Numbered from the stretch's first letter, positions 23,785 through 57,028 are shown. The stretch is 64,000 nt of DNA from Gloeocapsopsis dulcis (GCF_032163395.1 NZ_CP119968.1:5110001-5174000), one strand, 5' to 3'. Numbers and translations: made by a program. Notes: generated by a model not told the origin, from the sequence alone.

Positions 23785-23806
23785 AAAACCTGTGAAGACA
23801 GGTTTT
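23785..23806 (+). terminator. Hairpin before kdsB
   Basis: AAAACCTGT (23785-23793) pairs with ACAGGTTTT (23798-23806) around a GAAG loop. The T content after it is modest, so termination may be partial. Confidence 0.5.
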
Positions 23807-23869
23807 ATCTGTTTAGCTACGGTTTCAACCGTTAAGCTTCCTACAACACCTACTATTTTCGGAGTCATT

Positions 23870-33303: not shown

Positions 33304-34143
<840 letters not shown>

Positions 34144-34148
34144 TTGCC

Positions 34149-34655: not shown

Positions 34656-34673
34656 ATTTGTAATTCAATCAAT

Positions 34674-35900: not shown

Positions 35901-36015
35901 GAAGATTTTGTATTGAGTAGTTAATTGAGATTGAAATGCGAATTAATCGCATCAAATAAAAAGTGTTGCGGTAGTTTCAATCAAACTTGGCAATTATTAT
36001 TAAGCAAGAATTATC

Positions 36016-37674
36016 ATGATCATTGATGCATTATCAATACCAGAAAATACAATCATCGAAAAAGACATTTGTATAGTTGGTGGAGGGGCTGCAGGAATTA
36101 CAATTGCACGAGAACTACGTAACCAACCTTATGAAGTCTGCATTTTAGAAAGTGGTGGATTCGATTTCGAGCAAGCTACACAGTCGCTATATGATGGTGC
36201 GAACGCTGGTATTTCATATTTTCCTCTAGGTGAGGCACGGGCGCGATATCTTGGTGGTTCGACTAACTTGTGGGGTGGGTGGAGTCGTCCATTTGATGAG
36301 GTTGATTTTGAAAAACGTTCGTGGGTGCCTTATAGTGGCTGGCCTGTGACTAGATCTGAGCTATTGCCATACTACCACCGCGCCCAGCAAGCTTGTCATC
36401 TGGGACCTTATGCTTACGATGTATCATCCTGGGAAGAAACTTTAAAACAACTGCAATGCGATCGCCTACCTTTGAACGAAGCCCAAGTCGAAACTTGTAT
36501 TTGGCAAGTGATCCCACCGACGCACCTGCGCTTTGGCGAAGCATACCGAACCGAACTCGAACAAGCAAAAAATGTTTCTACTTATCTCCACGCCAATGTC
36601 CTAGAAATCGAAACGAATGATACTGCACAAGCTGTAACTCGACTCCAAGTTGCAAGTCTTGATGGTAAAAAGTTCTGGGTGAAAGCTAAAGTCTTTATTC
36701 TAGCTGTTGGTGGAATTGAAAATCCCCGCTTGCTGTTACTAGCAAACAAAGTTCAAAGGTGTGGATTAGGCAATCAACATGACCTAGTTGGTAGATTCTT
36801 CATGGAACACCCTTTACTTAAATCAGGTAAAGTGCAGTTTTCTCAGCCAGCTGGTTTATATACTCAGAAAGTTATTCAAGCTGGCGAGTTATATATGGGT
36901 GCAGGGTTTAACCTTCCCCAAGCAGTTCAAGAACGCGAACAATTACTCAACTTCAGTACAAGGCTGTTACCTGTAAGGGATGAGGGGCTAGAAGCTTTTC
37001 AACGACTGAGACATCGAATTCCGCAAACGAAAACACCCGAAGCTTTCCCTAAAATTGTGCAAGGTCATCGCTATCGCAATAACACTTCGATTGTGAATGA
37101 CCTAGGTAAAGTCGTGACACATCTTGATAGTGTTGTTGCAAAAATTTATACCAAATTACTTAAATCCAATGCTGTGCAGCAACCTCAAGGTTACAACACG
37201 CTGATGATTGGCGAACAAGCCCCTAACCCAGATAGCCGAGTGACATTAAGTCCAGAACGTGACAAATTAGGACTCAATCGTGTCAAACTCGACTGGCGCT
37301 TAAATTCACTTGATAAGTATACAATGTTGCGATCGCAGCAACTTGTTGCACAAGAACTAGAGCGTTCTGGAGTTGGTCAACTGCAAATTGAGCTTACTAA
37401 TGACGACGCCTCATGGCAATCACTCACTAGTTCATATCACCATATGGGGACAACTCGGATGAGTAGCAGTCCCAAACAAGGTGTCGTTGACGAAAACTGT
37501 CGTATTCATGGAATGGGCAATTTGTACGTAGCTGGTAGTTCTGTTTTCCCGACAGGGGGACACTCAAACCCAACACTGACAATTGTCGCTTTATCAATTC
37601 GCTTGGCTGATCGTGTGAAAGCACAGATGAGTTCTGCTAATGCAATCGGTGCAATGGTTGGTAGCGGTCTGTAA
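36016..37674 (+). CDS. GMC-family FAD oxidoreductase
   Basis: The 552-residue protein has an N-terminal FAD motif (DICIVGGGAAGITIAREL), GGSTNLWGGWSRPFDEVDFE, and the C-terminal YHHMGTTRMSSSPKQGVVDE then NLYVAGSSVFPTGGHSNPTL. It is the full-length paralogue of the enzyme at 26402-28060. The C-terminal GGHSNP (GGAANP in the other) places His and Asn as in the GMC active site. It probably oxidises a sugar hydroxyl. A 115-bp gap before it holds no gene. Confidence 0.87.
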   Translation: MIIDALSIPENTIIEKDICIVGGGAAGITIARELRNQPYEVCILESGGFDFEQATQSLYDGANAGISYFPLGEARARYLGGSTNLWGGWSRPFDEVDFEKRSWVPYSGWPVTRSELLPYYHRAQQACHLGPYAYDVSSWEETLKQLQCDRLPLNEAQVETCIWQVIPPTHLRFGEAYRTELEQAKNVSTYLHANVLEIETNDTAQAVTRLQVASLDGKKFWVKAKVFILAVGGIENPRLLLLANKVQRCGLGNQHDLVGRFFMEHPLLKSGKVQFSQPAGLYTQKVIQAGELYMGAGFNLPQAVQEREQLLNFSTRLLPVRDEGLEAFQRLRHRIPQTKTPEAFPKIVQGHRYRNNTSIVNDLGKVVTHLDSVVAKIYTKLLKSNAVQQPQGYNTLMIGEQAPNPDSRVTLSPERDKLGLNRVKLDWRLNSLDKYTMLRSQQLVAQELERSGVGQLQIELTNDDASWQSLTSSYHHMGTTRMSSSPKQGVVDENCRIHGMGNLYVAGSSVFPTGGHSNPTLTIVALSIRLADRVKAQMSSANAIGAMVGSGL

Positions 37675-37712
37675 AGCGCTTAAAGCGCAGTAGATTGAGA
37701 GGATATAGAACA

Positions 37713-38981
37713 GTGAAAGTTCTTCACTTGTGGACAAGTGATTCGGGTAAGCTGGGTGGAGGTGGTGCTGTTTCAATGCATCGCCTTCATTTAGGACTCA
37801 GAGGCGCTGGCGTTAATTCTCAGATTTTGTGTGAAAACAAAACAACAGAGTCTCGTGAGGTGCAAGTCCTTGAACGTTGGTCGAGATGGGAAACAGCCGG
37901 AACATACCTCAAAAAATTCACATCAAGACTTGGATTAAACGATATCCACCGAATTAGTTCCTTCAAAATCAAACAACATCCGGCTTACATCGACACTGAA
38001 ATCCTCCACTTTCACGGCACTCACAGCGGTTTTATTAATTATTTAGCACTGCCTTCGTTAACAGCAAACAAGCCTGCAGTATTTACGCTTTGTGATATGT
38101 GGGCTTTTACAGGACACTGCGCTTTTAGTTACGACTGCGATCGCTGGAAAATTGGCTGCGGGAAATGTCCTTATCCTGACTCGAATCCGTATATCCGCCG
38201 CGACGGTACGCGCATTGAGTGGAAGCTCAAAGAATGGATCTACAATCACTCCAACATTACATTTGTCACCAAGAGTAAGTGGTTAACCCAAGTCGCACGA
38301 CAAAGTATCCTGAACCGCCATCCAATCTATGAAATTCCTAACGGGATCGATACTGAAATCTATCAGCCACTGAATCGCGAAGAATGTCGCGCCCAACTAG
38401 GAATTCCCCAAAATAAAAACGTCCTTATGTTCGCAGCGGTGCGTTTAGATCACTTCCAAAAAGGGGGCGATTTACTGCTTAAAGCTTTACAAAGCCTCCC
38501 AGCATCGCTTAAAGCTGAAACAGTATTAGTGATTATCGGTCATGGCGGTGAAGCGATCGCCCAAGCTGTAGGAATGCCCACACTCAATCTCGGTTATGTG
38601 AGTGACGATCGCCACAAAGCGGCTTGTTATTCGGCTGCTGATTTGTTTTTGTTTCCCACTCGTGCTGAAACTTTTGGTAACGTCGCTTTAGAAAGTATGG
38701 CGTGTGGTACGCCTGTTGTCTCGTTTAAAGTTGGTGGCGTTCCTGATTTAGTGCGACATGGTATCACAGGATACCTCGCTACACCCGAAGATGCTCAAGA
38801 CTTTAGTAATGGTATTGCACAACTACTCACACAATCTTCTAGTGACATGAGTCAACAGTGTCGGGCGATCGCATCTCAAGAATACTCCGTTGAATTATGC
38901 GCGCAACGACATCTCAAGTTGTATAACCACATTCTCGAAAATTCGTCAGTATCTTCTCAGCAACGAGTTGCTTTTAGTTAA
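37713..38981 (+). CDS. Family 4 glycosyltransferase
   Basis: I start at GTG 37713, which has GAGAGGA about ten bases upstream and gives the natural beginning VKVLHLWTSDSGKLGGGGAV; a TTG 18 bases earlier is in frame. The 422-residue protein is a GT4 of the WcaA/WcaC-like type that carries a cysteine-rich insertion (GHCAFSYDCDRWKIGCGKCP, about residues 132-151), often seen in this group. The donor site is ETFGNVALESMACGTPVVSF. It is 12 bp before the GT14-like gene. Confidence 0.86.
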   Translation: MKVLHLWTSDSGKLGGGGAVSMHRLHLGLRGAGVNSQILCENKTTESREVQVLERWSRWETAGTYLKKFTSRLGLNDIHRISSFKIKQHPAYIDTEILHFHGTHSGFINYLALPSLTANKPAVFTLCDMWAFTGHCAFSYDCDRWKIGCGKCPYPDSNPYIRRDGTRIEWKLKEWIYNHSNITFVTKSKWLTQVARQSILNRHPIYEIPNGIDTEIYQPLNREECRAQLGIPQNKNVLMFAAVRLDHFQKGGDLLLKALQSLPASLKAETVLVIIGHGGEAIAQAVGMPTLNLGYVSDDRHKAACYSAADLFLFPTRAETFGNVALESMACGTPVVSFKVGGVPDLVRHGITGYLATPEDAQDFSNGIAQLLTQSSSDMSQQCRAIASQEYSVELCAQRHLKLYNHILENSSVSSQQRVAFS

Positions 38982-38993
38982 TAATATACGCAC

Positions 38994-39920
38994 ATGATTT
39001 GCTACTTTATTCAAAGCCACAAAAACCCCGAACAAATTCTGCGACTAGTGCGAGTGATTAAACAATCAAGTCCTTATTCTCAGGTCTTGATCAATCATGA
39101 CTTTAGTACTTCCTACCTCGATTTATCTAGTCTCAGTCATTACTCGGGAATTGACTTAATCCAACGCAAAAAACCTGCCAAACGTGGTGATTCATCTTTA
39201 CTCGCGATGTATCTTGATGCTATCGATTGGCTATTTACTCATAATTTAGATTTTGATTGGCTTGTCTGTCTTTCTGGTCAAGATTATCCCACGCAACCAA
39301 TATCGACCATTGAGAATTTTTTGACTCAAACTGAACACGATGGTTTTATTCGTTATTGGGATGTGCTTTCACCAAAAAGTCTTTGGGGTAAAGCAGGAGA
39401 AAAACGCTTTTTTGGGCAGTATATCAGCTTGCCGGAGTGGACGAGTTGGTTTCTTAGAAAACTAGGAAGAATTGAACCTTTTACGCCACTTTTAGTGCAG
39501 TGGCGATTTTCACTTTTGGGGCTAAAAGCTAAATCTCATCCTTTTAATGAGCAATTTAAATGTTATGGCGGGTGGTATTGGAACACGCTATCGAGAAAAT
39601 GTGTTAAATATTTTAGAGAATATTTGCATGAGCATCCTGAAGTTTTAAAATACTATCAAAAAACTCTGGCTCCAGAAGAATCAATTATGCAAACTGTTTT
39701 GGTAAACAGTCAACAATTTAATTTGTGCAATGATGATAAACGTTTTGTAGAGTTTCCTGCTGATATTCGCAGTGGAAATGCTCGGTTATTAACAACTGAA
39801 GATTATCCTAAAATCACTCATGGCGATTTTCATTTTGCGCGAAAGATTGATAGTCAGCACGATAGTCAACTATTAGATATGCTTGACGAAAGAGTATTTT
39901 ATTGTATGATAACTAGCTAG
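38994..39920 (+). CDS. Core-2/I-branching-type glycosyltransferase (GT14-like)
   Basis: The 308-residue protein begins MICYFIQSHKNPEQILRLV and has DWLVCLSGQDYPTQPI at about 89-104, then APEESIMQTVLVNS near 220. These are typical of GT14 (Branch) enzymes, which add beta-1,6-GlcNAc or xylose branches without an obvious DXD motif. In bacteria they occur in polysaccharide loci. No signal peptide is seen. It may add a branch to the repeat unit. Confidence 0.8.
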   Translation: MICYFIQSHKNPEQILRLVRVIKQSSPYSQVLINHDFSTSYLDLSSLSHYSGIDLIQRKKPAKRGDSSLLAMYLDAIDWLFTHNLDFDWLVCLSGQDYPTQPISTIENFLTQTEHDGFIRYWDVLSPKSLWGKAGEKRFFGQYISLPEWTSWFLRKLGRIEPFTPLLVQWRFSLLGLKAKSHPFNEQFKCYGGWYWNTLSRKCVKYFREYLHEHPEVLKYYQKTLAPEESIMQTVLVNSQQFNLCNDDKRFVEFPADIRSGNARLLTTEDYPKITHGDFHFARKIDSQHDSQLLDMLDERVFYCMITS

Positions 39921-40008
39921 GTTGTAGGGGGCGGGCAGGGATTTTGTCTACCCCACATTTTAAAATTTATTTTTTTGTAATAAAATTATATTTGTGTTAA
40001 TTTAAGTA

Positions 40009-40797
40009 ATGAAAAATCAAAATTCTGCATCTGCATTGTATAGAAAAGAATCATTAATTACTGCTTTAATTGAATGGATTCCTAGAGGACCAGGAATCGT
40101 TTTAAGAAACTCAATTTATCGCTCTATCTTTGCTCAAATAGGTCATTCAGTGCGGATTCAAGCTGGGGTTGAATTTATCCAACCACGTCATATAGAAATT
40201 GGTAATAATGTCAATATTAACCGTGGTGCTTTTTTAAGTAGTGCTGTTCTCACAAATAAAACTCAGCCAAGTAATAATAAAATTTGCATTGGCGATCGCG
40301 TCCACATTGAATCTGGTGTGCGGATTAATACCGCCGGAGAAAATTGCAGCATTCATCTTCACGAACAAGTCAATCTAGACTGTGGAGTTGATATCAAAGC
40401 ACACGATTGCGGGTTAATCGAGATCGGTGCAGCAACCTACATTGGTCCTTACACTTGTATCGCGGGTCCTGGTTCGGTCAAAATTGGTAAAAACTGCTTG
40501 ATAGCATCACATTCAGGAATTTACGCTAATAATCATAAATTTGCCGATCCCAGCTGTAATATTCGAGAACAAGGATTGACTTGTAAAGGAGTTGTCATCG
40601 AAGATGACTGTTGGTTAGGTACTGGAGTCAAAGTCTTAGATGGCGTCACGATTGGCAAAGGTAGCGTTATCGGTGCGGGCGCAGTAGTCACCAAAGATAT
40701 TCCTCCCTATACGGTTGCTGTTGGTGTTCCAGCTAAAGTTATTTCACAACGGCAGTTACATCAAGAATTGTTGTACCAAACACATCAGGTCAGATAA
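40009..40797 (+). CDS. Hexapeptide-repeat (LbH) acyltransferase, WcaF/WcaB-like
   Basis: The 262-residue protein has a long left-handed beta-helix: IEIGNNVNI, ICIGDRVHI, IEIGAATYIG, VKIGKNCLIASHSGIYANNHKF (with likely catalytic His), VLDGVTIGKGSVIGAGAVVTK. Enzymes of this type move an acetyl group to a sugar hydroxyl or amino group. It is followed after 2 bp by a second acyltransferase. The two are from the same superfamily but are not near-identical copies. Confidence 0.84.
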   Translation: MKNQNSASALYRKESLITALIEWIPRGPGIVLRNSIYRSIFAQIGHSVRIQAGVEFIQPRHIEIGNNVNINRGAFLSSAVLTNKTQPSNNKICIGDRVHIESGVRINTAGENCSIHLHEQVNLDCGVDIKAHDCGLIEIGAATYIGPYTCIAGPGSVKIGKNCLIASHSGIYANNHKFADPSCNIREQGLTCKGVVIEDDCWLGTGVKVLDGVTIGKGSVIGAGAVVTKDIPPYTVAVGVPAKVISQRQLHQELLYQTHQVR

Positions 40798-40799
40798 TT

Positions 40800-41546
40800 A
40801 TGGTATCTACTTCATCTCAAATCTGGACTCGGTTTTCTAACACCTGGCAATCTCGCGGAGTAAGCGGCGTTGCGACAACAACTTGGGCAGCATTTTGGAT
40901 GCAATTTGCAGCATTAGGAGGCATTGGACGCATCACAACTTGGATTGCAACCTGGTTTGCTCCCCCCTATTATGCGCGTCGTCGTTTGGCAAGATTTAAC
41001 TCTAAAGGCTATATCGCCCCCAGTGCAACGATTTATCACTCACAGATAAAACTCGGTAAACACATTTTTATTGGTGATCGCGTCACGATCTTTGAAGATA
41101 AAAAGCAGCCAAATATTAATAGTGGTTCTGTCGAACTTGCCGATCGAGTTCATCTTTATGGGGATACTATCATTCAGACAGGTGAATGTGGCACTCTCAA
41201 GATCGGTTCTGATACACACATTCAGCCCCGCTGTCAGTTTTCTGCCTACAGAGCAGCGATTCAAATTGGTCGTGGCGTTCAAATTGCTCCTAACTGTGCT
41301 TTTTACCCGTACGATCACGGTATTGACCCAGGAGAACTTATTAGCAAGCAACCGCTGCAAACTAAAGGGGGTATTGTTGTCGAAGATGATGCCTGGTTAG
41401 GTTTCGGTGTCATTGTTTTAGATGGCGTCCGTATTGGTAAAGGTGCTGTCGTTGGTGCAGGTGCGGTTGTGAATCGAGATATTCCCGATGGCGCGATCGC
41501 TGTAGGTGTACCTGCTCGTGTTGTTGGTATGCGCAGCAACGGTTAG
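40800..41546 (+). CDS. Left-handed beta-helix acyltransferase, paralogue of 24623 gene
   Basis: The 248-residue protein has the same length as the product of 24623-25369 and the same order of motifs: IWTRFSN, ARRRLARF, FIGDRVTIFEDK, IQPRCQFSAYRA, NCAFYPYDHGI, DDAWLGFGVIVLDGV, IGKGAVVGAGAVV. It is a hexapeptide O-acetyltransferase by family. ATG 40800 lies 2 bp after the preceding stop, so translation is probably coupled. Confidence 0.84.
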   Translation: MVSTSSQIWTRFSNTWQSRGVSGVATTTWAAFWMQFAALGGIGRITTWIATWFAPPYYARRRLARFNSKGYIAPSATIYHSQIKLGKHIFIGDRVTIFEDKKQPNINSGSVELADRVHLYGDTIIQTGECGTLKIGSDTHIQPRCQFSAYRAAIQIGRGVQIAPNCAFYPYDHGIDPGELISKQPLQTKGGIVVEDDAWLGFGVIVLDGVRIGKGAVVGAGAVVNRDIPDGAIAVGVPARVVGMRSNG

Positions 41547-41579
41547 TCGCTACAGATAATCTAAGATCTAAAATCAATT

Positions 41580-43445
41580 TTGCCAAAATTATTTATGCCT
41601 GTTAAAATTCCTGCACCAATTCACCGCATTCTTCAAACTACGAGCTTTTGGCGAGACAACTCTTTTCTCATCAGAGAATTTAAGTATTTTGGTAGAGCGG
41701 CAACCTTTGCATTTATATTTACCATCCTAGCGGCAGCTTTTGAAGGTTTTGGAATTGGTTTTATCCTAACTTTTTTGCAAAGCTTGACACATCCCGACTC
41801 CGCACAATTTCAGACAGGAATAGAGTGGATTGATAGTGCTGTGTTAGGAGTTAATGCTCCTGTCAACGAACGACTCTTTCGGATATCTGGTCTAATTCTC
41901 TTAACAACCTTCTTACGTCTAGGTTTCAGCTACTTAGGAAAGCTTTATACAAGAATTTCAGCTTCTAGTTTGGCATATCGCTTACGACGACTTCTCTTTG
42001 AACAGTTAATTTCGCTGCGAATTAGTTACTTTGCCAAAAAACGTTCAGGAGAAATCATCAACAGCCTCACCGCAGAAGTTATTCAATTGCAACATGCTTT
42101 TGATGTCAGTTCTACACTGCTTACTAAAGTCATTACGCTCTGGGTATACATCATTTCAATGTTTTTGCTGTCTTGGCAGCTAACTTTAGTGTCAGGTATG
42201 CTGTTTAGCTTACTATCGGTAGGTATATCGACACTATTAGGACGAATTCGGGAAGCCAGTTTTGAAAAGTCAAAAGCAAGTGGTAGATACACCTCGGTTG
42301 CCCTCGAATTAGTTAATGGAATTCGCACTGTTCATGCTTTTGCTGCGCAGGATTTTGAACGCAAACGCTTCTATGGTGCTAATCAAAATTTATTAAATGC
42401 AACGCTGCAATCTATCTCGGCGCAAGCACTTGTAGAACCACTTAGAGAAGGAATTGCAACAACAATTCTCATTGGGATGTTAGTGGTAGCAGTGACTACT
42501 TTAATTCCCCAAGGGTTCTTAGAGCTAGCTTCTTTGTTAACCTTTTTGTTTGTGCTATTCCGTATGATGCCAACTTTGCGTCAAATTGACTCGGCTAGAG
42601 TACAAATGAGTGGTCTGCATGGTTCGCTCCGAGACATCAAAGAGTTGCTGCGTAAAGATGACAAAGCATACACGCGCAATGGTAAACTTCAGTTTACAAA
42701 ATTAAAGCACGCGATTGAGTATGTCGCCGTCGATTTTGGTTATGACTCAGATGAGCCTGTTTTACACAATATTTCACTTTCAATTAAAAAAGGTGAAATG
42801 ACAGCCTTGGTAGGTTCTTCCGGTGCAGGTAAATCAACATTAGCCGACTTAATTCCGCGATTTTACGACCCAACCGCTGGACAAATTCTTGTTGATGGAG
42901 TCGATTTACGCGAATTTGAGATCAATTCACTGCGGCGTAAGTTGGCAGTTGTCAGTCAAGATACGTTTATTTTCAATACTTCAGTACGTGACAATATTGC
43001 CTATGCACTGGAAGGTGCTGATGAAGCAGCTATTTGGGAAGCTGCACGCTTAGCAAATGCTTTAGACTTTATTCAAGAGCTACCTCAAGGTTTTGACACA
43101 CAGTTAGGCGATCGCGGCGTCCGGTTATCTGGTGGACAAAGACAACGAATTGCGATCGCCCGTGCGTTGTTACGTAATCCAGATATTCTAATTCTCGATG
43201 AAGCGACAAGTGCCTTGGATTCTGTTTCAGAACGATTGATTCAAGAATCTTTAGAAAAACTTGCTGTCGGTCGTACCGTAATTGCGATCGCGCACCGACT
43301 GTCAACAATTGTCCGTGCGGATAAAGTCGTTGTCCTTGAAGGAGGACGGATTATTGAACAAGGTGGTTATCAGGAACTACTCAGTCAGCGAGGAAAACTG
43401 TGGAAGTATCATCAGCTACAGCACGAGATGAGTCATGTATCCTAA
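41580..43445 (+). CDS. HepA-like ABC exporter (membrane and ATPase domains fused)
   Basis: The 621-residue protein has six membrane segments over about residues 1-340 and an ATPase domain after 370. Walker A is GSSGAGKSTLADL, the signature is LSGGQRQRIAIARALL, Walker B is ILILDEATSALD, and AHRLSTI holds the H-loop. The layout fits MsbA/HepA-type half exporters. In Anabaena, HepA is needed for the heterocyst envelope polysaccharide. It may move a lipid-linked sugar or polymer across the inner membrane and could stand in for a flippase. TTG 41580 or ATG 41595 may be the start. Confidence 0.87.
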   Translation: MPKLFMPVKIPAPIHRILQTTSFWRDNSFLIREFKYFGRAATFAFIFTILAAAFEGFGIGFILTFLQSLTHPDSAQFQTGIEWIDSAVLGVNAPVNERLFRISGLILLTTFLRLGFSYLGKLYTRISASSLAYRLRRLLFEQLISLRISYFAKKRSGEIINSLTAEVIQLQHAFDVSSTLLTKVITLWVYIISMFLLSWQLTLVSGMLFSLLSVGISTLLGRIREASFEKSKASGRYTSVALELVNGIRTVHAFAAQDFERKRFYGANQNLLNATLQSISAQALVEPLREGIATTILIGMLVVAVTTLIPQGFLELASLLTFLFVLFRMMPTLRQIDSARVQMSGLHGSLRDIKELLRKDDKAYTRNGKLQFTKLKHAIEYVAVDFGYDSDEPVLHNISLSIKKGEMTALVGSSGAGKSTLADLIPRFYDPTAGQILVDGVDLREFEINSLRRKLAVVSQDTFIFNTSVRDNIAYALEGADEAAIWEAARLANALDFIQELPQGFDTQLGDRGVRLSGGQRQRIAIARALLRNPDILILDEATSALDSVSERLIQESLEKLAVGRTVIAIAHRLSTIVRADKVVVLEGGRIIEQGGYQELLSQRGKLWKYHQLQHEMSHVS

Positions 43446-44941: not shown

Positions 44942-44970
44942 CAAGTATAGTAAGTTAACCAAAAATTTTG

Positions 44971-45828
44971 ATGTTCTTGAATTTCTGGCACGCTAAACCA
45001 CAGCTAACAATTCCAACTAGTATTGTTCATCTACAGGACATTGAATTTACTCACAGTCAAGAACGTGCTTTGAAAATGGATATTTTGCACCCCAAAATAT
45101 CAACTCAATTAATGCCTGTGCTAGTTTGGATTCATGGCGGTGCTTGGCGTTCAGGTGACAAAAAAGAGGGACTCAAGCATTTAGTTTCCTTTGCCCGTCA
45201 GGGCTTTTTTTGTGCCAGTATTGAATATCGTTTGAGCCACGAAGCCATCTTCCCTGCTCAAATTCAAGATTGTAAGTGTGCTATTCGCTTCCTTCGCGCT
45301 CATGCTCGTGAATTTCATATTGATCCGCACCATATTGGTGTTTGGGGTGTCTCTGCTGGCGGACATCTTGCTGCGCTTTTGGGAACTACGCATCACATTC
45401 AAGAGTTTGAAGGAAGTGGAGGTTGGGAAAATTATTCTAGTTGCGTACAGGCTGTTTGTGATTGGTTTGGACCGACTGATTTTTTGAGGATTAATGATTC
45501 TCCTCGTAAAATCGATTTTACTCCTGCAGGCTCTCCGGAGGCGGCACTTATTGGTGGGCTTATCGAAGAAAATCAGGAAAAAGCAGCAAAAGTTAACCCA
45601 ATTACTTTTGTAAGTAAAGAAGCTTCTCCTTTTTTAATTGTGCATGGAGATAATGATTCGTTAGTGCCACTTAATCAAAGTCAATTACTCTTTGACGCTT
45701 TGCAAAAAGCAGACGTAGAGGTGACGCTTGAGGTCATCAAAGGTGGTAAACACGGAAATGAAAAGAAATTTGGTTCGCGCGCTCTTTCTCAAAAAATGGA
45801 GAAATTTTTTAAAAAGCACCTAACTTAG
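44971..45828 (+). CDS. Alpha/beta hydrolase, esterase type
   Basis: The 285-residue protein has an oxyanion motif VWIHGGAWRSGDKK and a nucleophile elbow GVSAGG with Ser128. VHGDNDSLVP (Asp) and KGGKHGNE (His) follow, completing a triad of the carboxylesterase / acetyl-xylan-esterase type. No signal peptide is visible. ATG 44971 is chosen over the in-frame TTG 44968. It may remove acetyl or hydroxycinnamoyl groups from sugars, which is of interest with the ammonia-lyase cluster 4 kb downstream, but the substrate is not shown by sequence. The next 166 bp hold no gene. Confidence 0.8.
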   Translation: MFLNFWHAKPQLTIPTSIVHLQDIEFTHSQERALKMDILHPKISTQLMPVLVWIHGGAWRSGDKKEGLKHLVSFARQGFFCASIEYRLSHEAIFPAQIQDCKCAIRFLRAHAREFHIDPHHIGVWGVSAGGHLAALLGTTHHIQEFEGSGGWENYSSCVQAVCDWFGPTDFLRINDSPRKIDFTPAGSPEAALIGGLIEENQEKAAKVNPITFVSKEASPFLIVHGDNDSLVPLNQSQLLFDALQKADVEVTLEVIKGGKHGNEKKFGSRALSQKMEKFFKKHLT

Positions 45829-48615: not shown

Positions 48616-48737
48616 GGCAATTTTTAAGGCTCAAGAGAACCCTTTTGCGGAGAAATTCAATAAGAAGAAATAGAGCGAATTTGTCAAGAAATTCATAATC
48701 AGAATGTCATTACAGAGGAGATACAGCAGCTCTCAAT

Positions 48738-48863
48738 ATGGTAAATCCCAGTTATGGTACTGGCAAAGCTGAATATGTACCACCGATGTGTTTAGCAGCG
48801 ATCGCCTGCACAACTGGCAAATGTGCCTGCCCTGGTAAGTGTTTAAGCAAGTTTATTTCCTGA
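48738..48863 (+). CDS. Possible small cysteine-rich peptide
   Basis: ATG 48738 opens 41 codons, ending TGA 48861-48863, 32 bases before the ammonia-lyase start. The product has five cysteines in its C-terminal half (CLAAIACTTGKCACPGKC, residues 18-35) and a hydrophilic N-terminus. AGAGGAG lies at 48714-48720, too far (17 bases) for normal initiation, so the start is doubtful. No family is recognised. It could be a metal-binding peptide, a leader peptide, or chance. Confidence 0.3.
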   Translation: MVNPSYGTGKAEYVPPMCLAAIACTTGKCACPGKCLSKFIS

Positions 48864-48895: not shown

Positions 48896-50578
48896 ATGAA
48901 TACAGCAGCTTTACAACAGACACAAACTTCTGCAAAAACTGTGTCGATAGGTAATCGCAACATCACCATTGATGAAGTCGTTAGTGTGGCACGTCATGGT
49001 GCCGAGGTACAGATCAGCAAAGCAGATGACGTTGCGCAGCGCGTTCAAGCATCTTGTGACTATATCGCTGATGCAGTCGCAACGGGTAGACCAATCTACG
49101 GTGTCACGAGTGGTTTTGGTGGAATGGCAAATGTTGTCATTTCGCGCGAGTATGCAGACTTATTACAGCATAATCTTGTTTGGTATCACAAAGTCGGTGC
49201 TGGACGCAAGTTACCGCTCACTGATGTCCGCGCTGCAATGCTGTTGCGTGTTAATTCACATTTACATGGTGCTTCAGGAATCCGCCGTGAGATCGTCCAG
49301 CGGATGGAAACGTTTCTAAATGCTAAAGTGACACCGCACGTTCCTGAATACGGGTCGATTGGTGCAAGTGGCGATTTGACACCATTGTCCTACATTACAG
49401 GTGCTTTGATTGGGTTAGACGAGCGCTATACTGTTGACTTTGATGGCGAAGAAATCGATGCGATTACTGCCCTAAATCGGTTGGGATTACCACAGTTGCA
49501 ACTCCAAGCGAAAGAGGGGCTAGCCATGATGAATGGCACCTCAGTCATGACAGGAATTGCAGGTAACTGCGTGTACGATACAAGGCTGCTGATGGCGTTG
49601 ACAATGGGAGCACACGCGCTGATTCTGCAAGGTTTAAACGGAACAAATCAATCATTTCACCCCTTTATTCACGAACTGAAACCACATCCAGGGCAAAAAT
49701 GGGCAGCATACACCATGCTCGATCTCTTGGCAGGTTCGCGCTTGATTCGTGAAGAGTTAGACGGTACGCACGAGTATCGCGGTCAAGCCCCAATCCAGGA
49801 TCGTTACTCTTTACGGTGTTTGGCGCAATATATGGGACCAATTGTTGATGGTGTGTCTCAAGTTGCCCAACAAATCGAGGTTGAGATGAACTCGGCGACA
49901 GACAACCCGCTGATTGATGCCGAGAACCAAGCGAGTTATCACGGCGGTAATTTCTTAGGACAGTATGTAGGTATGGGAATGGATCACCTGCGATACTACA
50001 TCGGGATGATGGCAAAACACCTTGATGTGCAAATTGCTTATCTCGTTGCCCCTGAATTTAATAACGGCTTACCTGCTTCTTTGGTTGGTAACAAAGAACG
50101 CATTGTCAATATGGGACTCAAAGGGTTGCAAATTACTGGTAACTCGATTATGCCGTTGTTGAGTTTCTACGGAAATTCAATTGCCGATCGCTATCCTACC
50201 CATGCCGAACAATACAACCAAAACATCAATAGCCAAGGGTTTGCCGCCGCGAACTTAACGCGCAACGCCGTTGAGATCTTCCAGCAGTATATGGCAATCG
50301 CCCTTATGTTTGGCGTTCAAGCGGTTGATTTAAGAACGTATGCTTATGCAGGACATTACGATGCTAGTGAGAGTCTATCTCCAGTCACGCGACGTCTGTA
50401 TCAAGCCGTGCGCGAAGTTGTGGGACAGCCACCATCAGCAACTCGCCCTTACATCTGGGACGATCGCGAACAACCTTTAGACGAACACATTGCCAAAGTT
50501 GCGGCTGATATTGCGGCTGAAGGTGCGATTGTTACAGCGGTAAAAGATCTTTTGACTAGCTTGAACAAGGACTCGTAG
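48896..50578 (+). CDS. Aromatic amino acid ammonia-lyase (PAL/TAL type)
   Basis: The 560-residue protein is closely similar in order and wording to the cyanobacterial phenylalanine ammonia-lyase of Anabaena. IYGVTSGFGGMANV holds catalytic Tyr68, and GSIGASGDLTPLSY holds the Ala157-Ser158-Gly159 triad that forms the MIO cofactor. LNGTNQSFHPFIH, TDNPLI and FLGQYVGMGMDHLRYY follow. It removes ammonia from Phe or Tyr to give cinnamate or coumarate. The selectivity pair is Y97-H98, where Anabaena PAL has Phe-Leu, so tyrosine use is favoured; a His here is known from tyrosine lyases. HAL activity is unlikely given the close match. It overlaps the next gene's start region. Confidence 0.9.
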   Translation: MNTAALQQTQTSAKTVSIGNRNITIDEVVSVARHGAEVQISKADDVAQRVQASCDYIADAVATGRPIYGVTSGFGGMANVVISREYADLLQHNLVWYHKVGAGRKLPLTDVRAAMLLRVNSHLHGASGIRREIVQRMETFLNAKVTPHVPEYGSIGASGDLTPLSYITGALIGLDERYTVDFDGEEIDAITALNRLGLPQLQLQAKEGLAMMNGTSVMTGIAGNCVYDTRLLMALTMGAHALILQGLNGTNQSFHPFIHELKPHPGQKWAAYTMLDLLAGSRLIREELDGTHEYRGQAPIQDRYSLRCLAQYMGPIVDGVSQVAQQIEVEMNSATDNPLIDAENQASYHGGNFLGQYVGMGMDHLRYYIGMMAKHLDVQIAYLVAPEFNNGLPASLVGNKERIVNMGLKGLQITGNSIMPLLSFYGNSIADRYPTHAEQYNQNINSQGFAAANLTRNAVEIFQQYMAIALMFGVQAVDLRTYAYAGHYDASESLSPVTRRLYQAVREVVGQPPSATRPYIWDDREQPLDEHIAKVAADIAAEGAIVTAVKDLLTSLNKDS

Positions 50579-50580
50579 TG

Positions 50581-52224
50581 ATGAACATTGCCCAACATAT
50601 AGAACGCGGTCATCATTTATTTCCTGATAAGACTGCCCTCATTTTTGAAGAAAGATCTTACACGTACAAAGATCTCGACTTGCTGGCAAATCGCGTCGCC
50701 AATGGGTTACGCGATCGCAATATTCATCGCGGCGATCGCATTGCCTTATTCTTGCCGAATATTCCCGAATTCATCATTGCTTATCTCGGCATAGTTAAAA
50801 TCGGTGCGGTGGCTGTATCGCTTAATGCCATGCTCAAAAGCACCGAAGTCAGCTTTATTCTCAATGATTCAGGTGCGAAGGCAATTGTCACCACCGCAGA
50901 ACTTGTAGAGAATGTCCCTGAAGCAGACTTACCTGAGTTAAAACACATCTTGATTGCTGAAGGCGAAAGCAGCAAAGGATTGGGCTTAGCTGAGATGATG
51001 GCAAGTGCCTCATCAGAAGCCAAGGCGATTGAAATGGATCGTCATGCCCCCGCTGCGATTGTCTACACTTCAGGTACTACAGGCTTTCCTAAAGGCGCTA
51101 CCTTATCTCACGGTAATGTCATTTCTAACAGCTACTCGCAAAACCGTTGTTGTGGGATGAGTGCCGAAGAACGCATCTTACTGTACCTACCACTATTCCA
51201 CTGCTTCGGTCAAAACGCCGTTCTTAATGCTGGGCTAAATGCCTGTGCGACGATTGTTCTCCACCGTAATTTCGATTTAGAGAAGATTCTTAACTCGGTC
51301 GCTACTGAGCAGATCACGATGTTCTTTAGTGTGCCGACACTCTACATCCTACTTCTAAATATGGGGACGTTGGGCTATGACTTGAGTTCGATTCGCTACT
51401 ACTTCTCAGCTGCTGCACCACTTCCTGTAGAGGTTGCTCAAAAGTGGTTTGACAAGTATGGCTTAGAAATTCATCAAGGCTACGGTCTGACGGAAACATC
51501 TCCTTGCGCTAGCTACAACAATGACTTTAAATACAAAGTCGGGTCAATAGGTACGCCGATTGAAAATGTCGAGATGAAAATCGTCCATGCGGATGGCAAA
51601 GATGCCTTACCAGGAGATCTCGGCGAAATTATTATTCGGGGTCCTAATGTGATGTTGGGCTATTGGAATCGCCCCTTTGAAACCGCAGAAGTGATCAAAA
51701 ACGGGTGGTTTTATACTGGTGATATTGGTCAAATTGATGAAGACGGCTACTTCTACATTGTGGATCGCTCCAAAGACATGATTAATGTTGCTGGATTCAA
51801 GGTCTACCCAACTGAAGTAGAAAACGTCATCTATCAACACCCCACAGTGGCCGAAGTTGCCGTTTACGGCGTTCCCAACTTGGAAACAACTGAAATCGTC
51901 AAAGCCAATATTGTTCTTAAACCAGAGCAAACTGTAACAGAAAAACAAATGATTGCTTTCTGTTCTGAACGCATGGCTGCGTATAAAGTACCCAAAGCAA
52001 TTAAGTTTGTTGATTCTATTCCCAAAAATCCTACGGGAAAAGTCTTAAAACGCGTTCTGCGTGACGAGGCTGCCAATGAAGCCCTAGTAGTAAAACCAAG
52101 AAGCTTTGTTGCAAAACCTGCTGTCACAAAAACTCCAGCGCCAGTCGTTACACCAGCCACTACTAATAATTCAAATAAAGGTGTCTTCAAGGCTTTAGGT
52201 AACTTGTTTAAACACCGAAATTAG
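50581..52224 (+). CDS. AMP-forming acyl/aryl ligase (4-coumarate-CoA ligase-like)
   Basis: ATG 50581 is 2 bases after the lyase stop; a GTG at 50578 overlaps it. The protein has the ANL motifs YTSGTTGFPKGATLSHGN (ATP loop), GYGLTETSP, FYTGDIG and NPTGKVLKR with the catalytic Lys. It should activate a carboxylic acid as acyl-AMP and pass it to CoA or a carrier. Next to an ammonia-lyase, coumarate or cinnamate is the likely substrate, but fatty acid is possible. After the usual end (about residue 498) there is a 49-residue tail rich in Pro, Ala, Thr and Lys ending LGNLFKHRN, which is unusual for the family. Confidence 0.86.
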   Translation: MNIAQHIERGHHLFPDKTALIFEERSYTYKDLDLLANRVANGLRDRNIHRGDRIALFLPNIPEFIIAYLGIVKIGAVAVSLNAMLKSTEVSFILNDSGAKAIVTTAELVENVPEADLPELKHILIAEGESSKGLGLAEMMASASSEAKAIEMDRHAPAAIVYTSGTTGFPKGATLSHGNVISNSYSQNRCCGMSAEERILLYLPLFHCFGQNAVLNAGLNACATIVLHRNFDLEKILNSVATEQITMFFSVPTLYILLLNMGTLGYDLSSIRYYFSAAAPLPVEVAQKWFDKYGLEIHQGYGLTETSPCASYNNDFKYKVGSIGTPIENVEMKIVHADGKDALPGDLGEIIIRGPNVMLGYWNRPFETAEVIKNGWFYTGDIGQIDEDGYFYIVDRSKDMINVAGFKVYPTEVENVIYQHPTVAEVAVYGVPNLETTEIVKANIVLKPEQTVTEKQMIAFCSERMAAYKVPKAIKFVDSIPKNPTGKVLKRVLRDEAANEALVVKPRSFVAKPAVTKTPAPVVTPATTNNSNKGVFKALGNLFKHRN

Positions 52225-52257
52225 CTCAATCAAAACCAACGTAGTGCAGCAAAAAAA

Positions 52258-52280
52258 GCGATTAGCAATTAGCAATCAGC
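52258..52280. repeat. Heptanucleotide tandem repeat remnant
   Basis: GCGATTAGCAATTAGCAATC contains repeated ATTAGCA units. Similar TTAGC-rich stretches lie at 53821-53845 and 53880-53896. This is the short tandem repeat type common in filamentous cyanobacteria. Confidence 0.45.
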
Positions 52281-52301
52281 CAAAACCTGACGACTGAAAA
52301 A

Positions 52302-52343
52302 TCAGGACATAATAATTGAAAAGTGTCCTGATAAAGTTTTTAT
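52302..52343 (+). terminator. Rho-independent terminator after acyl ligase gene
   Basis: TCAGGACA (52302-52309) pairs with TGTCCTGA (52324-52331) and is followed by TAAAGTTTTTAT. It implies that the lyase and ligase form a two-gene unit. The rest of the 316-bp gap (52225-52540) shows only TTAGCAA repeats. Confidence 0.7.
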
Positions 52344-52540
52344 ACTCTGCTAGCTTCCTAGGTCACTTTAAATAAGGAAAAATTTTTCTAAAGATTGAGA
52401 GATCTTGATATACCTGCCTTTCAGTCTTGCCCTAACATATTTTCTACTGGCGATACTTTTGCCAAGATCTGCATCCAAAGCTGAGCGCATAGTTAAATTT
52501 ACAGCCAACAAACAAATTTAGTTGTTTAAAGAGGTACATA

Positions 52541-53827
52541 ATGAATTCACTACTTCTAGTGAAGCCGCTCACAAAGTTTCTACAAGGCAGAAGGAGAGGA
52601 TTCTTATTTAGGAGAATTAAAGAGCCACTTCGCAAGTGGATTAATTCTTCTATGTCAGAAAAGCTGGGTTTACAACCAAATATAGTAACAAGAAAAGAAC
52701 TGTTTGAGAATAGCCAGAAATACCACATTCTCGAATTTGGCTCTGAGGAAAAAATTATAGTTAATCAGCCTTATAACAGTTTGGTAGCCGAAAAGCTTCC
52801 TTGGTCCCCTACAGATACATTTGGCACATTCACTTTAGAAAAACCTTTTGTATTTGAAGCAATAAATGCGGAGCTTGTGGGTTCGCAGGCTATTGGATTT
52901 GATCAGGATAAAAACCTAATTCAAGAAACAGTTATTGGTAAAAATAGTAAATCACTAAATACGCTGATAAGTCGGTTATCTACGCGAACCTTGCTTTCAC
53001 AAAAAATACCTAGCTTTGGTTCTCAACAAGACACGGTATATTCATTAGTTAATCATTTTAGCGGTGGCTATTATCACTGGATAACTGATAGTTTATGTCG
53101 GCTTGAAGGAGTCGAGTATTATCAACAACAAACTGGGAGAAAACCACTTTTACTGATTGGGACAGATCCTCCCAAATGGAAAATAGAATCTCTCAAACTT
53201 TTAGGATATGAGCCAGAGGATTGCATACTCTGGGATAAATCAAGGATGAGAGTTAAACGATTAATAGTCCCATCTTTTCGGCGCGAGGGAAACCTGTTAT
53301 CACCTTTAGCTTGTCAGTGGTTGCGTCAGCAGATGATGAGCAATCTTCCTGATGTTGATAGCACAAACATCTCTTTTTCATCTAGAATATATATTAAAAG
53401 AACCCAAAAGATGGGACGTAACGTAATTAATGAAGATGAGTTAATGGCAGCTTTGGCTCCATTTGGATTTGTTAGTTACACATTGGAAGATATGAGTTTT
53501 TCGGATAAGGTAAGACTATTTTCGCAAGCAGAAATAGTTGTTGCTCCTCATGGTGCTGGTCTAGTAAATACAATTTTTTCACCACAGAACTTAATTGTTA
53601 TTGATATTTTTGGTTTATATGGCACTCCATGTTTTCTTGTTTTAGCGAAAGCTTTAGGTTTTCATTATGGATGCCTTGGATCAGCAGGTCGAAATGAGCG
53701 AAATTACAGACATGAAACTTACAATAGCTTTAAAGTGGATGTTTCTAGATTGCGGGATCTTGTTGCCCAAATGTTACAAGAATTTGGATTGCCACTGGCA
53801 TATTCTCACGGAGTTAGAAGCAATTAG
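52541..53827 (+). CDS. Family 61-type glycosyltransferase (DUF563)
   Basis: The 428-residue protein contains GGYYHWITDSLCRL near residue 177, SRIYIKRTQKMGRNVINEDEL and VVAPHGAGLVNTIFSPQ, the motifs of GT61/DUF563 proteins. In plants, GT61 enzymes add xylose or arabinose to xylan, including arabinose that carries hydroxycinnamoyl esters. In bacteria they appear in polysaccharide loci. Here it sits between the ammonia-lyase/ligase pair and a carrier-thioesterase gene. It may add the sugar that receives the acyl group, which is inference. Confidence 0.82.
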   Translation: MNSLLLVKPLTKFLQGRRRGFLFRRIKEPLRKWINSSMSEKLGLQPNIVTRKELFENSQKYHILEFGSEEKIIVNQPYNSLVAEKLPWSPTDTFGTFTLEKPFVFEAINAELVGSQAIGFDQDKNLIQETVIGKNSKSLNTLISRLSTRTLLSQKIPSFGSQQDTVYSLVNHFSGGYYHWITDSLCRLEGVEYYQQQTGRKPLLLIGTDPPKWKIESLKLLGYEPEDCILWDKSRMRVKRLIVPSFRREGNLLSPLACQWLRQQMMSNLPDVDSTNISFSSRIYIKRTQKMGRNVINEDELMAALAPFGFVSYTLEDMSFSDKVRLFSQAEIVVAPHGAGLVNTIFSPQNLIVIDIFGLYGTPCFLVLAKALGFHYGCLGSAGRNERNYRHETYNSFKVDVSRLRDLVAQMLQEFGLPLAYSHGVRSN

Positions 53828-53925
53828 CGGTTAGCTATTAGCAAAATTTTACAGATGAACTTAAGGTGTGAACGAGCTTTTGGCTCTTAGCAATCAGTTG
53901 TCTTTACGTAAATTGAAGAGAAATC

Positions 53926-55107
53926 ATGAAATCAGTAGAAGAAATGAGTGTCTCCCAAACAGAAATAAACTCAAAGCTAGAGCCAAACTCAGAAGGAGAA
54001 GTTTATATTGCGCCACGCAATTCTATTGAACTCCAACTTGCCCAGATGTGGGAGCAAGTGTTGGAAATTCAGCCGATTAGCATCATAGACAATTATTTTG
54101 ATCTTGGAGGGGACTCGCTACGGGCGCTACGACTATTTGATCAAATTGAGCAAACATTTGGCAAAAAGTTGTCTCTAGCAACTTTAATTCAAGCACCAAC
54201 TCTCGAACAACTGGCTGAAGTAATTGGTCAAGAATCTGAATCGGTACCTTTTAGATCGCTGGTTCCCATCCAACCGAGTGGTTCTAAACCACCTTTATTT
54301 TGTATGCATGGAAATGGTGCCCATGTTCTCGCTTTTCAGGATCTCGCCCAATACTTAGGTGCAGATCAACCATTCTATGGACTGCAAGCACGCGGAGTAG
54401 ATGGAGTCACAACACCTTTGAATCGAATTGAAGATATGGCAGCTGCTTATATCGAAGAAATTCGCGCAGTTCAGCCAGAAGGACCTTATTACTTAGCAGG
54501 TTTCTCTTCTGGAGGTGTAGTCGCGTTTGAAATGGCACGGCAGTTACACGCCAAGGGTGAGAAAGTCGCATTTGTGGGCTTACTCGATACTTTTGTTCCA
54601 GGTTGTTTCAAACAAGTTACTGTACTAGAGTGGTTCTCGCGACAGTGGCGTAACTTTTTCCGCTTCGGGCTGAAACACCCAGCAAAAATTGCCTACCGCA
54701 GCCTAGAAAGAAAATGGTACGTTGTCTACTGGAGTGCTTATCTACAACTAGCAGGAACTCTGCCTTATTTTTGGCACAGAAAGTATGTAGGATATAGCAT
54801 TAGAAAAGCAATGCGCACCTATACATTTCAACCTTATGCAGGTAAGTTAACGCTGTTTCGTGCCATCGAAGTGCCAGGAAAAGGATGGTATTACTATCCT
54901 TCAGGAATGCCTACTCCTGATGATTGGCACACAAAAGATCCTCAATACGGCTGGGGCGATCTTGCCGAAGGAGGATTAGAAGCCCACGATCTTCCTGGCA
55001 ATCACTCGACAATTCTTAAAGAACCCCATATCAAGGTTCTGAGTAAAAACTTGGAGGCTTGCTTGGAAAAAGCGCGTTCTGAAGTTACTGTCGATGAGTT
55101 GAGTTAA
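53926..55107 (+). CDS. Stand-alone carrier protein-thioesterase didomain
   Basis: The 393-residue protein has the two last domains of a non-ribosomal peptide synthetase without any others. A carrier domain at about 25-100 contains DNYFDLGGDSLRALRLF, with Ser64 as the phosphopantetheine site. A type I thioesterase follows (about 118-385), with GFSSG (Ser194), LLDTF (Asp) and GNHST (His360). PLFCMHGNGAHVLAF supplies the oxyanion region. No adenylation or condensation domain is nearby. It could receive an acyl group from the ligase at 50581 and pass it to a sugar or to water. It needs a phosphopantetheinyl transferase encoded elsewhere. Confidence 0.9.
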   Translation: MKSVEEMSVSQTEINSKLEPNSEGEVYIAPRNSIELQLAQMWEQVLEIQPISIIDNYFDLGGDSLRALRLFDQIEQTFGKKLSLATLIQAPTLEQLAEVIGQESESVPFRSLVPIQPSGSKPPLFCMHGNGAHVLAFQDLAQYLGADQPFYGLQARGVDGVTTPLNRIEDMAAAYIEEIRAVQPEGPYYLAGFSSGGVVAFEMARQLHAKGEKVAFVGLLDTFVPGCFKQVTVLEWFSRQWRNFFRFGLKHPAKIAYRSLERKWYVVYWSAYLQLAGTLPYFWHRKYVGYSIRKAMRTYTFQPYAGKLTLFRAIEVPGKGWYYYPSGMPTPDDWHTKDPQYGWGDLAEGGLEAHDLPGNHSTILKEPHIKVLSKNLEACLEKARSEVTVDELS

Positions 55108-56062: not shown

Positions 56063-57028
56063 ATGAGCAGAAAAATCTTGCATCGCTTGATTCAACACAC
56101 TGTTTTTACAAAAATTATATTTCTGTTGTATTACAGTCATGTTATTAAAGTTACGATTATTACTCTCTCAATTAAGAATAAGCTGACAAAAACTCAGTAT
56201 AACTTTAGTCATTTTTCTTTAACCCCAGTAAAGGTTAGCATTTCTGCTAATTATATTGAGACTAATCCTAGTGGTGATGTCCTAGCAAATAGTGATGCGA
56301 TCGCTGATTTAGAAGAAAAATGTACATTTATTCCTGAATACAACTCACCACTAAAAATTATGCTTCTCGGTGACTCTATTACCTACGGAGTAAAAGGAAT
56401 AAGTGATAGAGATAGTGGTGGCTACCGCCCAGAACTATGGCAAAAGTTTGTTGCTGATGCATTACCAGTTAAGTTTGTTGGTTCAAGATCCGAGGGACCA
56501 GACACACTTGGAGATAAAACCCATGAAAGTCATCCTGGGTGGACAATAAAGCAGATTGCTGCCTCAATTGATGACTGGCTTAATATAGCTCAACCAAACT
56601 TAATTTTATTAATGATTGGTACCAATGATACGAGCAGAAGTTCACTCAGAACAATGATTGAAGATTTTAGTAATTTGATCGATAAAATTACTGCGTGTTG
56701 TCCTCACGTCCAACTACTTGTTGCTTCCATTCCACCTATTCATCCTGCAGCTAAACCAGCAATTCGTAGTTTACGCGCAATGTATTTTAATGCGGCAATT
56801 CCTAGTATTGTGTCCTCTAAAATAGCCCAAGGCAAAAAAATACATTTTGTAGATATGAGAAGTTTAAGTATTCAAGATTTAACATCATCCCTCTCCCTCG
56901 ACTTGGACAGAGGGGTACATCCTAATAGTCAGGGTTATCATAAAATTGCCAACTTTTGGCACGATGCTGTGTTGAAAGTGATTAGCGATCGCCAAACTCA
57001 CTTAGCTTTTTCACGTTCTCAACAGTGA
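56063..57028 (+). CDS. SGNH/GDSL hydrolase with N-terminal anchor
   Basis: The 321-residue protein has a hydrophobic N-terminal segment at about 15-36 that may act as a signal anchor. An SGNH domain follows: IMLLGDSITYG (Ser105), HPGWTIKQIA, LLMIGTNDTS, and a C-terminal DRGVHPNSQGYHKI supplying the Asp-His pair. It closely resembles the SGNH part of the RTX protein at 17193-18911 but has no RTX repeats. It probably removes acyl groups from sugars at the cell surface. Loss of RTX repeats and gain of an anchor imply a different location for the same activity. Confidence 0.82.
   Translation: MSRKILHRLIQHTVFTKIIFLLYYSHVIKVTIITLSIKNKLTKTQYNFSHFSLTPVKVSISANYIETNPSGDVLANSDAIADLEEKCTFIPEYNSPLKIMLLGDSITYGVKGISDRDSGGYRPELWQKFVADALPVKFVGSRSEGPDTLGDKTHESHPGWTIKQIAASIDDWLNIAQPNLILLMIGTNDTSRSSLRTMIEDFSNLIDKITACCPHVQLLVASIPPIHPAAKPAIRSLRAMYFNAAIPSIVSSKIAQGKKIHFVDMRSLSIQDLTSSLSLDLDRGVHPNSQGYHKIANFWHDAVLKVISDRQTHLAFSRSQQ

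Follow-up and report, generated by a model that had tools for sequence, protein, structure and literature searches.

Gene content of the locus

The window analysed here is a 64,000-nucleotide stretch of the 5.6-Mb genome of the cyanobacterium Gloeocapsopsis dulcis (C1:5110001-5174000), in which genes for an aromatic amino acid ammonia-lyase and an AMP-forming acyl ligase lie inside an envelope polysaccharide locus. An earlier note on this DNA had read four genes in a row, the lyase, the ligase, a GT61-type glycosyltransferase (GT) and a carrier protein-thioesterase (TE) didomain, as one cassette that may attach hydroxycinnamate to the polysaccharide. All four open reading frames start where it had placed them, on one strand (48896, 50581, 52541 and 53926), and their family assignments hold, including that of the GT61 gene (Glyco_transf_61, 1e-26). 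The real module is a different set, made up of a BD-FAE-like gene (44968), the lyase, the ligase and the carrier-TE, together with a decayed DAHP synthase (48682-48848); the first and last of these were absent from the earlier note. The features of this region are as follows.

44968..45828, + strand: BD-FAE / carbohydrate-esterase-like alpha/beta hydrolase (PF20434, 6.5e-70), with no obvious signal peptide
48682..48848, + strand: DAHP synthase remnants (pseudogene), tblastn pieces 62-92% identical to intact DAHP synthase (PF00793)
48896..50578, + strand: aromatic amino acid ammonia-lyase (4-methylideneimidazole-5-one, MIO, enzyme), with a Tyr-His selectivity pair at residues 97-98
50581..52224, + strand: AMP-forming hydroxycinnamate ligase (CybC/4CL-like), with Cys at residue 309 (counted from the GTG at 50578)
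52253..53851, no strand: 1.6-kb insertion carrying the GT61 gene (52541-53827, + strand), clean relative to L060-L063 and outside the module
53926..55107, + strand: standalone peptidyl/acyl-carrier plus type I TE (PP-binding and Thioesterase domains; Ser64; Ser194/Asp221/His360)

The lyase carries a full-length Lyase_aromatic domain (PF00221, residues 23-507, E 8e-151) with an intact MIO motif, GSIGASGD (GSIGASGDLTPL), which places it among the MIO ammonia-lyases and agrees with its reading as a phenylalanine or tyrosine ammonia-lyase (PAL/TAL). It is the sole PF00221 gene in the genome and is 98% identical to the lyase of Gloeocapsopsis crepidinum LEGE 06123. Its nearest solved structures are the PALs of Nostoc punctiforme and Anabaena, of which it is an ortholog. 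Histidine ammonia-lyase (HAL) is not favoured as an identity, as the PAL/TAL Gln (‘GVQAVDLR’) is present where HAL has Glu, the residue rule that separates the two groups (PMC3992019). At the selectivity positions the lyase has Tyr-His in place of the Phe-Leu pair of AvPAL/NpPAL-type enzymes (2nyf, 2nyn), and since Tyr comes first and His second it also lacks the canonical TAL mark, which is His at the first position of the Watts switch (PMC3992019). The protein matches the NCBIfam FlxA model with a score below the cut-off.

The ligase ATG (50581) lies two bases past the lyase stop, as read at the junction TCGTAGTGATGAAC, and the protein contains AMP-binding (4e-97) and AMP-binding_C domains. 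Its best solved relatives are feruloyl-CoA synthetase (8weu/8wev), FadD13, Nt4CL2 and plant 4-coumarate:CoA ligase (4CL), so that its fold is nearest to those of hydroxycinnamate ligases. NCBIfam gives it no narrower name than a broad subfamily of long-chain fatty acid (acyl) ligases, whose cut-off it barely exceeds; this placement is compatible with a fatty-acid ligase, a reading against which linkage and co-variation with the lyase (see below) argue. Beyond the catalytic domains, the window ligase ends in a linker and a helix, GVFKALGNLFK, which belong to a 40-residue tail ending GV(F/L)K(A/S)LGN(L/I)FK that was found only in the carrier-TE-linked ligases of the window's family.

In the carrier-TE, the carrier Ser64 and the TE triad Ser194/Asp221/His360 are invariant in the alignment. 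The structure model (mean predicted local distance difference test score, pLDDT, 81.7) matches in Foldseek first the carrier-TE pairs of the nonribosomal peptide synthetases EntF/AB3403 and then the TE of Pks13 (about 1e-16), so that an intact carrier serine, an intact Ser-Asp-His triad and the TE fold are all as expected of a Pks13-type protein. The nearest relatives outside the family are condensation-carrier-TE (C-T-TE) proteins, 44-51% identical, encoded beside an AMP ligase. The examined clusters of this type, one of which lies in the window genome itself (L140), also hold DAHP synthase or chorismate pyruvate-lyase, and because of these neighbours we consider that the carrier-TE probably derives from an aryl-acid setting. 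L140 is a second aryl-acid cluster of this genome (L140:4647-10052; G000:C1 about 3892646-3898051) and encodes a chorismate pyruvate-lyase (Rv2949c-like), an AMP ligase, the C-T-TE protein and a C39-type ABC exporter; the related clusters L142-L150 also have genes for DAHP synthase, a halogenase-like protein and an FAD hydroxylase.

Co-variation of lyase and ligase residues

Two alignment positions at the known selectivity switch split 64 lyases into two main classes, Tyr-His (YH, 35) and Phe-Leu (FL, 23). In the 53 loci where the lyase pair could be set against ligase residue 309, we observed 26 with YH and Cys, three with YH and Phe, none with another pair and Cys, and 24 with another pair and Phe or Leu (Fisher p 4e-12, a statistic that ignores phylogeny). 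The two classes are interspersed in the ligase tree, with at least three forced changes, and the co-variation is therefore more than one inherited split. Ligase residue 309 corresponds in the alignment to a Val of tobacco 4CL2 that is present in structure 5u95 and absent from the variant structure 5bsw; we take it to be a pocket residue that in 4CL tunes the acceptance of ring substituents. Because AvPAL and NpPAL carry Phe-Leu, the FL-Phe class probably corresponds to Phe/cinnamate and the YH-Cys class to Tyr/coumarate, and the co-variation with Cys309 suggests that the YH lyases form a separate Tyr class. Since the selectivity pair and the pocket residue co-vary across the 53 loci, L-tyrosine is favoured over L-phenylalanine as the predicted substrate of the window lyase. 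The same residues would offer a simple sequence rule for sorting cyanobacterial coumarate pathways from cinnamate pathways.

Conservation of the module across genomes

We examined neighbourhoods of about 20 kb around the lyase in 50 places and 28 named contigs. The lyase is present in 52 of the 391 genomes of the order, and in most of the 64 loci the ligase follows it, either directly or past one short gene or a cytochrome P450; the same order also occurs in other phyla, including Verrucomicrobia and Planctomycetes. In most Nostocales-type loci the pair is followed by a thiamine diphosphate (ThDP) enzyme and a beta-ketoacyl-acyl carrier protein synthase III (KASIII)-like protein, which is the CybB-CybC-CybE-CybF set. 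In other loci a polyketide synthase (PKS) comes next and the ligase has a carrier domain fused to it, the fusion being seen in L022, L071 and L080.

In the window's family the arrangement is a different one. All nine lyase-positive genomes, from three genera, have lyase, ligase and carrier-TE inside a polysaccharide locus, the standalone carrier-TE following the ligase and being reached in the window only past the GT61 insert. The carrier-TE-linked lyases form one tree group (91/80) and their ligases another (100/100). These results bear out the earlier note in its placement of a phenylpropanoid entry inside a polysaccharide locus and in its linking of the didomain to the lyase-ligase pair.

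The BD-FAE gene is inherited with the lyase, being found in nine of nine lyase-positive and none of ten lyase-negative genomes of the family, a split whose chance would be 1 in 92,378 for independent genomes, though these genomes are not independent. For comparison, the HepA exporter of the locus is present in 18 of the 19. Among 390 genomes sampled across the class, BD-FAE matches were confined to the window genome and one other of its genus. The domain assignment is secure (PF20434, 235 bits against a cut-off of 26.8), and the nearest solved relatives, mostly carbohydrate esterases, comprise lip_vut4, a GH43-CE fusion, an acetyl xylan esterase and a carbohydrate esterase. In L060, L061, L063 and L064 the gene immediately upstream of the lyase is an intact DAHP synthase, of which the window has fragments alone.

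The surrounding polysaccharide locus

The sugar-polymer context proposed in the earlier note is well marked. The genes around the module encode a Kdo8P synthase, a KdsC-like phosphatase, a CMP-Kdo-synthetase-like protein, a polysialyltransferase-like GT, GMC oxidoreductases, many further GTs, a WcaJ-type initiating sugar transferase, a sulfotransferase and a HepA-family ABC exporter, the last scoring 1017.7 bits with NF045513 against a curated cut-off of 725. Two parts of the locus are used in the comparisons below.

33307..43445, + strand: polysaccharide locus backbone, with Kdo8P synthase, KdsC-like, polysialyltransferase-like, GMC oxidoreductase, GT4 and Core-2/I-branching GT genes, two hexapeptide acyltransferase-like genes and the HepA-type ABC exporter, largely common to the lyase-negative genome G162
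56063..57028, + strand: GDSL/SGNH hydrolase, present in the locus of near relatives and of G162

A natural control is provided by G162, a lyase-negative genome of a sister genus, which has an orthologous locus sharing about thirty window genes (HepA, Kdo8P synthase, polysialyltransferase-like, GMC, branching GT, GAF, GDSL, WcaJ and others) and contains none of the four module genes. Because it is also found there, the GDSL/SGNH hydrolase probably has no specific tie to the module. A gap of 0.7 kb separates the polysialyltransferase-like and GMC genes in G162, and in the lyase-positive genome G149, from another genus, the module and a polysaccharide lyase gene lie exactly between them. In the window the same two genes are 0.1 kb apart and the module is found among other GT genes, at a distance of about 8-17 kb beyond them. 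The module thus stays together and keeps to the same polysaccharide locus despite its changed position, and because it does so in different genera we infer a functional link between the module and the polysaccharide.

The Kdo8P synthase, KdsC-like phosphatase, polysialyltransferase-like and CMP-Kdo-synthetase-like genes (33307-35900, 23792-24601) are kept as a set in G149 and G162, which suggests that the capsule of this cyanobacterium contains a sugar like Kdo or sialic acid. The locus also encodes a sulfotransferase and a PF14099 polysaccharide lyase (window 6802-7701 and 10112-10990), and a homologue of the latter directly adjoins the module in the g4 genomes.

The GT61 insertion

The alignment of the window with its nearest relatives is continuous to about 52253 and resumes at about 53852, the two ends being adjacent in L060, and the sequence between them has a GC content of 36.6% compared with 44-48% in the neighbouring sequence. 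The GT61 gene that it carries is absent at this site in L060-L064 and L068-L070. Homologues with 45-57% identity are scattered in the family; in g4 they stand in tandem about 20 kb away from the module, and G162 has a GT61 gene in its orthologous locus. Conserved linkage, on which the earlier note had staked its cassette, therefore stands for lyase, ligase and carrier-TE in all nine family genomes and fails for GT61, which as a genome-specific low-GC insertion with a counterpart in a lyase-negative locus we reject as a partner; the four genes are not one unit. For the same reasons GT61 may belong to the polymer and not to the aromatic module. The terminator that the note had placed after the ligase was not recovered either: our scan found none on the + strand between ligase and GT61 (52224-52541), and the region's 10 terminator-like hits do not greatly exceed the 6.2 (sd 2.9) found in shuffled sequence.

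A predicted pathway for hydroxycinnamate decoration

The lyase and ligase most closely resemble a known pair. In the furanolide (cyanobacterin) pathway, CybB converts tyrosine to 4-coumarate and CybC converts this to coumaroyl-CoA (PMC13288894, PMC12395478). The window has a homologous ammonia-lyase followed by an AMP-forming ligase in identical gene order, a likeness that rests on the pairs of CybE/CybF-like loci, to which the window proteins are 59-76% identical. It differs in having no CybE or CybF, a carrier-TE in their stead, a polysaccharide locus as its setting and the family-specific ligase tail, and the CybB/CybC-type pair is in this sense rewired. A second precedent is FlxA/FlxY of the Chitinophaga pinensis flexirubin pathway, a biochemically characterised bacterial TAL and 4-coumarate ligase (PMC3992019), whose pathway leads to an aryl polyene and has no polysaccharide link. 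The earlier note's statement that no such system is described in cyanobacteria thus needs to be narrowed, since the pair itself is that of the furanolide pathway, whereas we found no publication linking it to a polysaccharide. Literature searches for coumaroylated cyanobacterial exopolysaccharide or a Chroococcidiopsis lyase, and for ambigol-type 4-hydroxybenzoate clusters, returned nothing relevant. The lyase-ligase start is known. Its deployment inside a polysaccharide locus, alongside a standalone carrier-TE and a carbohydrate-esterase-like gene inherited with the pair, is to the extent of our searches undescribed.

For the later steps the closest parallel is the mycobacterial FadD32-Pks13 system, in which FadD32, an acyl-AMP ligase, loads the acyl chain and the Pks13 TE then releases it onto polyols, with trehalose as the preferred acceptor (PMC9210659). 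The window likewise has an AMP-forming ligase that would load a carrier with a C-terminal TE, and the folds of the TEs match; in mycobacteria, however, the substrate is fatty and the enzyme is a large PKS with ketosynthase and acyltransferase domains, of which only the terminal carrier-TE resembles the window protein (about 24% identity). The cyanobacterial C-T-TE clusters (L140-L150) share with the window an aryl-acid maker, a separate AMP ligase and a carrier-TE with 44-51% identity, and differ in their 4-hydroxybenzoate-type acid, their extra condensation domain and their halogenase/hydroxylase partners.

We propose that the four genes form an accessory module by which hydroxycinnamate is attached, or made available for attachment, to an envelope polysaccharide of Kdo type exported by HepA. 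The lyase would form 4-coumarate (or cinnamate) by deaminating an aromatic amino acid, L-tyrosine being a likelier substrate than L-phenylalanine; in relatives a dedicated DAHP synthase would have supplied the precursor for this step. The ligase would then adenylate the acid and load it onto the phosphopantetheine of the standalone carrier-TE, directly or via CoA, possibly with its tail helix as a docking element. Next, the TE would pass the aroyl group to a hydroxyl of a sugar, a lipid-linked repeat or the polysaccharide, as Pks13 does with trehalose, and the carbohydrate-esterase-like protein may trim or proofread such esters. UV absorption and oxidative cross-linking of the sheath would be the likely uses. 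Activation of a hydroxycinnamate by the lyase-ligase route is well supported, and homology, residue co-variation and conserved linkage argue for the first two steps as predicted; the last two we infer, and the same holds for the identity of the substrate, for direct loading, for transfer to sugar and for the biological role. We put at close to even the chance that this module charges its carrier with coumarate (or cinnamate) and that the acid ends up as an ester on the polysaccharide or a precursor.

Several points weigh on the other side. There is no direct evidence of transfer to sugar, and TE domains often only hydrolyse or cyclise; nor does a common polysaccharide locus prove that the product is shared. 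The YH pair departs from the canonical TAL mark, so that Tyr is not certain, and the BD-FAE family is broad, its name being no demonstration of feruloyl-esterase activity. The co-occurrence in the family is drawn from three genera and so reflects few independent events, and the window has lost its DAHP synthase and gained an insertion between ligase and carrier-TE, so the module might be decaying here, although all four proteins are intact.

The leading alternative, which we consider somewhat unlikely, is that the module makes a free small molecule, a secreted coumarate or cinnamate metabolite such as a simple ester, an amide or a phenolic sunscreen, and sits in this locus by chance. The characterised homologues that we found of the lyase-ligase pair do make small molecules (cyanobacterin, PMC12395478), the closest carrier-TE relatives come from small-molecule-like aryl-acid clusters with halogenase/hydroxylase genes, and small products are the usual release of TE domains; yet no gene for further tailoring, for a synthase or for dedicated export was found to be inherited along with the module, the gene that is co-inherited is carbohydrate-esterase-like, and chance would have had to place the module in the same polysaccharide locus at two positions in different genera. 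Improbable, in our view, is a purely hydrolytic end point, at which the carrier-TE only releases the acid and free 4-coumarate or cinnamate serves, for example, as a radical scavenger or signal. The TE has the common type I fold and triad, and a carrier-TE didomain with no other catalytic domain can load and hydrolyse, but ATP-dependent activation followed by hydrolysis of the lyase's own product would be futile and would leave the ligase and the carrier-TE without a point.

Very improbable is the version in the earlier note, in which GT61 adds sugar side chains that bear hydroxycinnamoyl groups, on the model of grass xylan: GT61 does adjoin the module in the window and occurs in tandem about 20 kb away in g4 genomes, but its insertion is absent at the site in all relatives and G162 has the gene while lacking a lyase. 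Feruloylated grass xylan (GT61/BAHD) shares with the window the idea of hydroxycinnamate esters on a wall polysaccharide, and differs in being eukaryotic, in relying on an acyltransferase of which we saw no homologue in the window and in its use of a GT61 that here is not conserved with the module. The least probable reading is a cyanobacterin-type pathway split over the genome, which the CybB/CybC-like pair, a lyase nested next to those of CybE/CybF-type loci and a CybF-like synthase elsewhere in some family members would favour, but CybE/CybF-like genes are not in all module-bearing genomes and the best matches in the window genome to the CybE-like ThDP enzyme (28% identity) and the CybF-like furanolide synthase (25%) are at the level expected of acetolactate synthase and FabH; unless unrelated enzymes replace both, we reject a furanolide cluster here.

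If hydroxycinnamate decoration by this module is correct, it would for the first time open the phenolic decoration of a bacterial envelope polysaccharide to genetic study, our literature searches having found no earlier case. It would also give a role to the PAL/TAL that these cyanobacteria have kept and a bacterial parallel to the phenolic-decorated walls of grasses. More tentatively, the family as a whole may make a hydroxycinnamoylated sheath polysaccharide by a carrier-bound route, an independent counterpart of feruloylated plant walls for UV screening and cross-linking; this could even be where an unexplained sheath phenolic such as gloeocapsin comes from. This pigment occurs in Chroococcidiopsidales among others and has been proposed to be a coumarin or flavonoid (Lara 2022, as cited in PMC10359912); the connection is only a lead.

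Other lyase and ligase contexts

In three Shewanella loci (L019, L020, L021), a ThDP enzyme, the ammonia-lyase, the ligase, a KASIII-like protein and a carrier protein are encoded one after another; here a furanolide-like cluster occurs in bacteria other than cyanobacteria, and its carrier protein is separate. Loci from Verrucomicrobia and Planctomycetes (L022, L023, L024, L026) have a Phe-Leu-type lyase followed by a carrier-fused ligase, with a large PKS next in L022 and L024. A UbiD-like decarboxylase, so named by sequence resemblance only, is encoded upstream of the lyase in the lyase-ligase-KAS loci L101, L103, L104 and L108. L093 and L097 represent a different lyase context, in which there is no ligase and the lyase is followed by genes that resemble those for an aminodeoxychorismate/anthranilate-type synthase, a methyltransferase, DAHP synthase and chorismate mutase.

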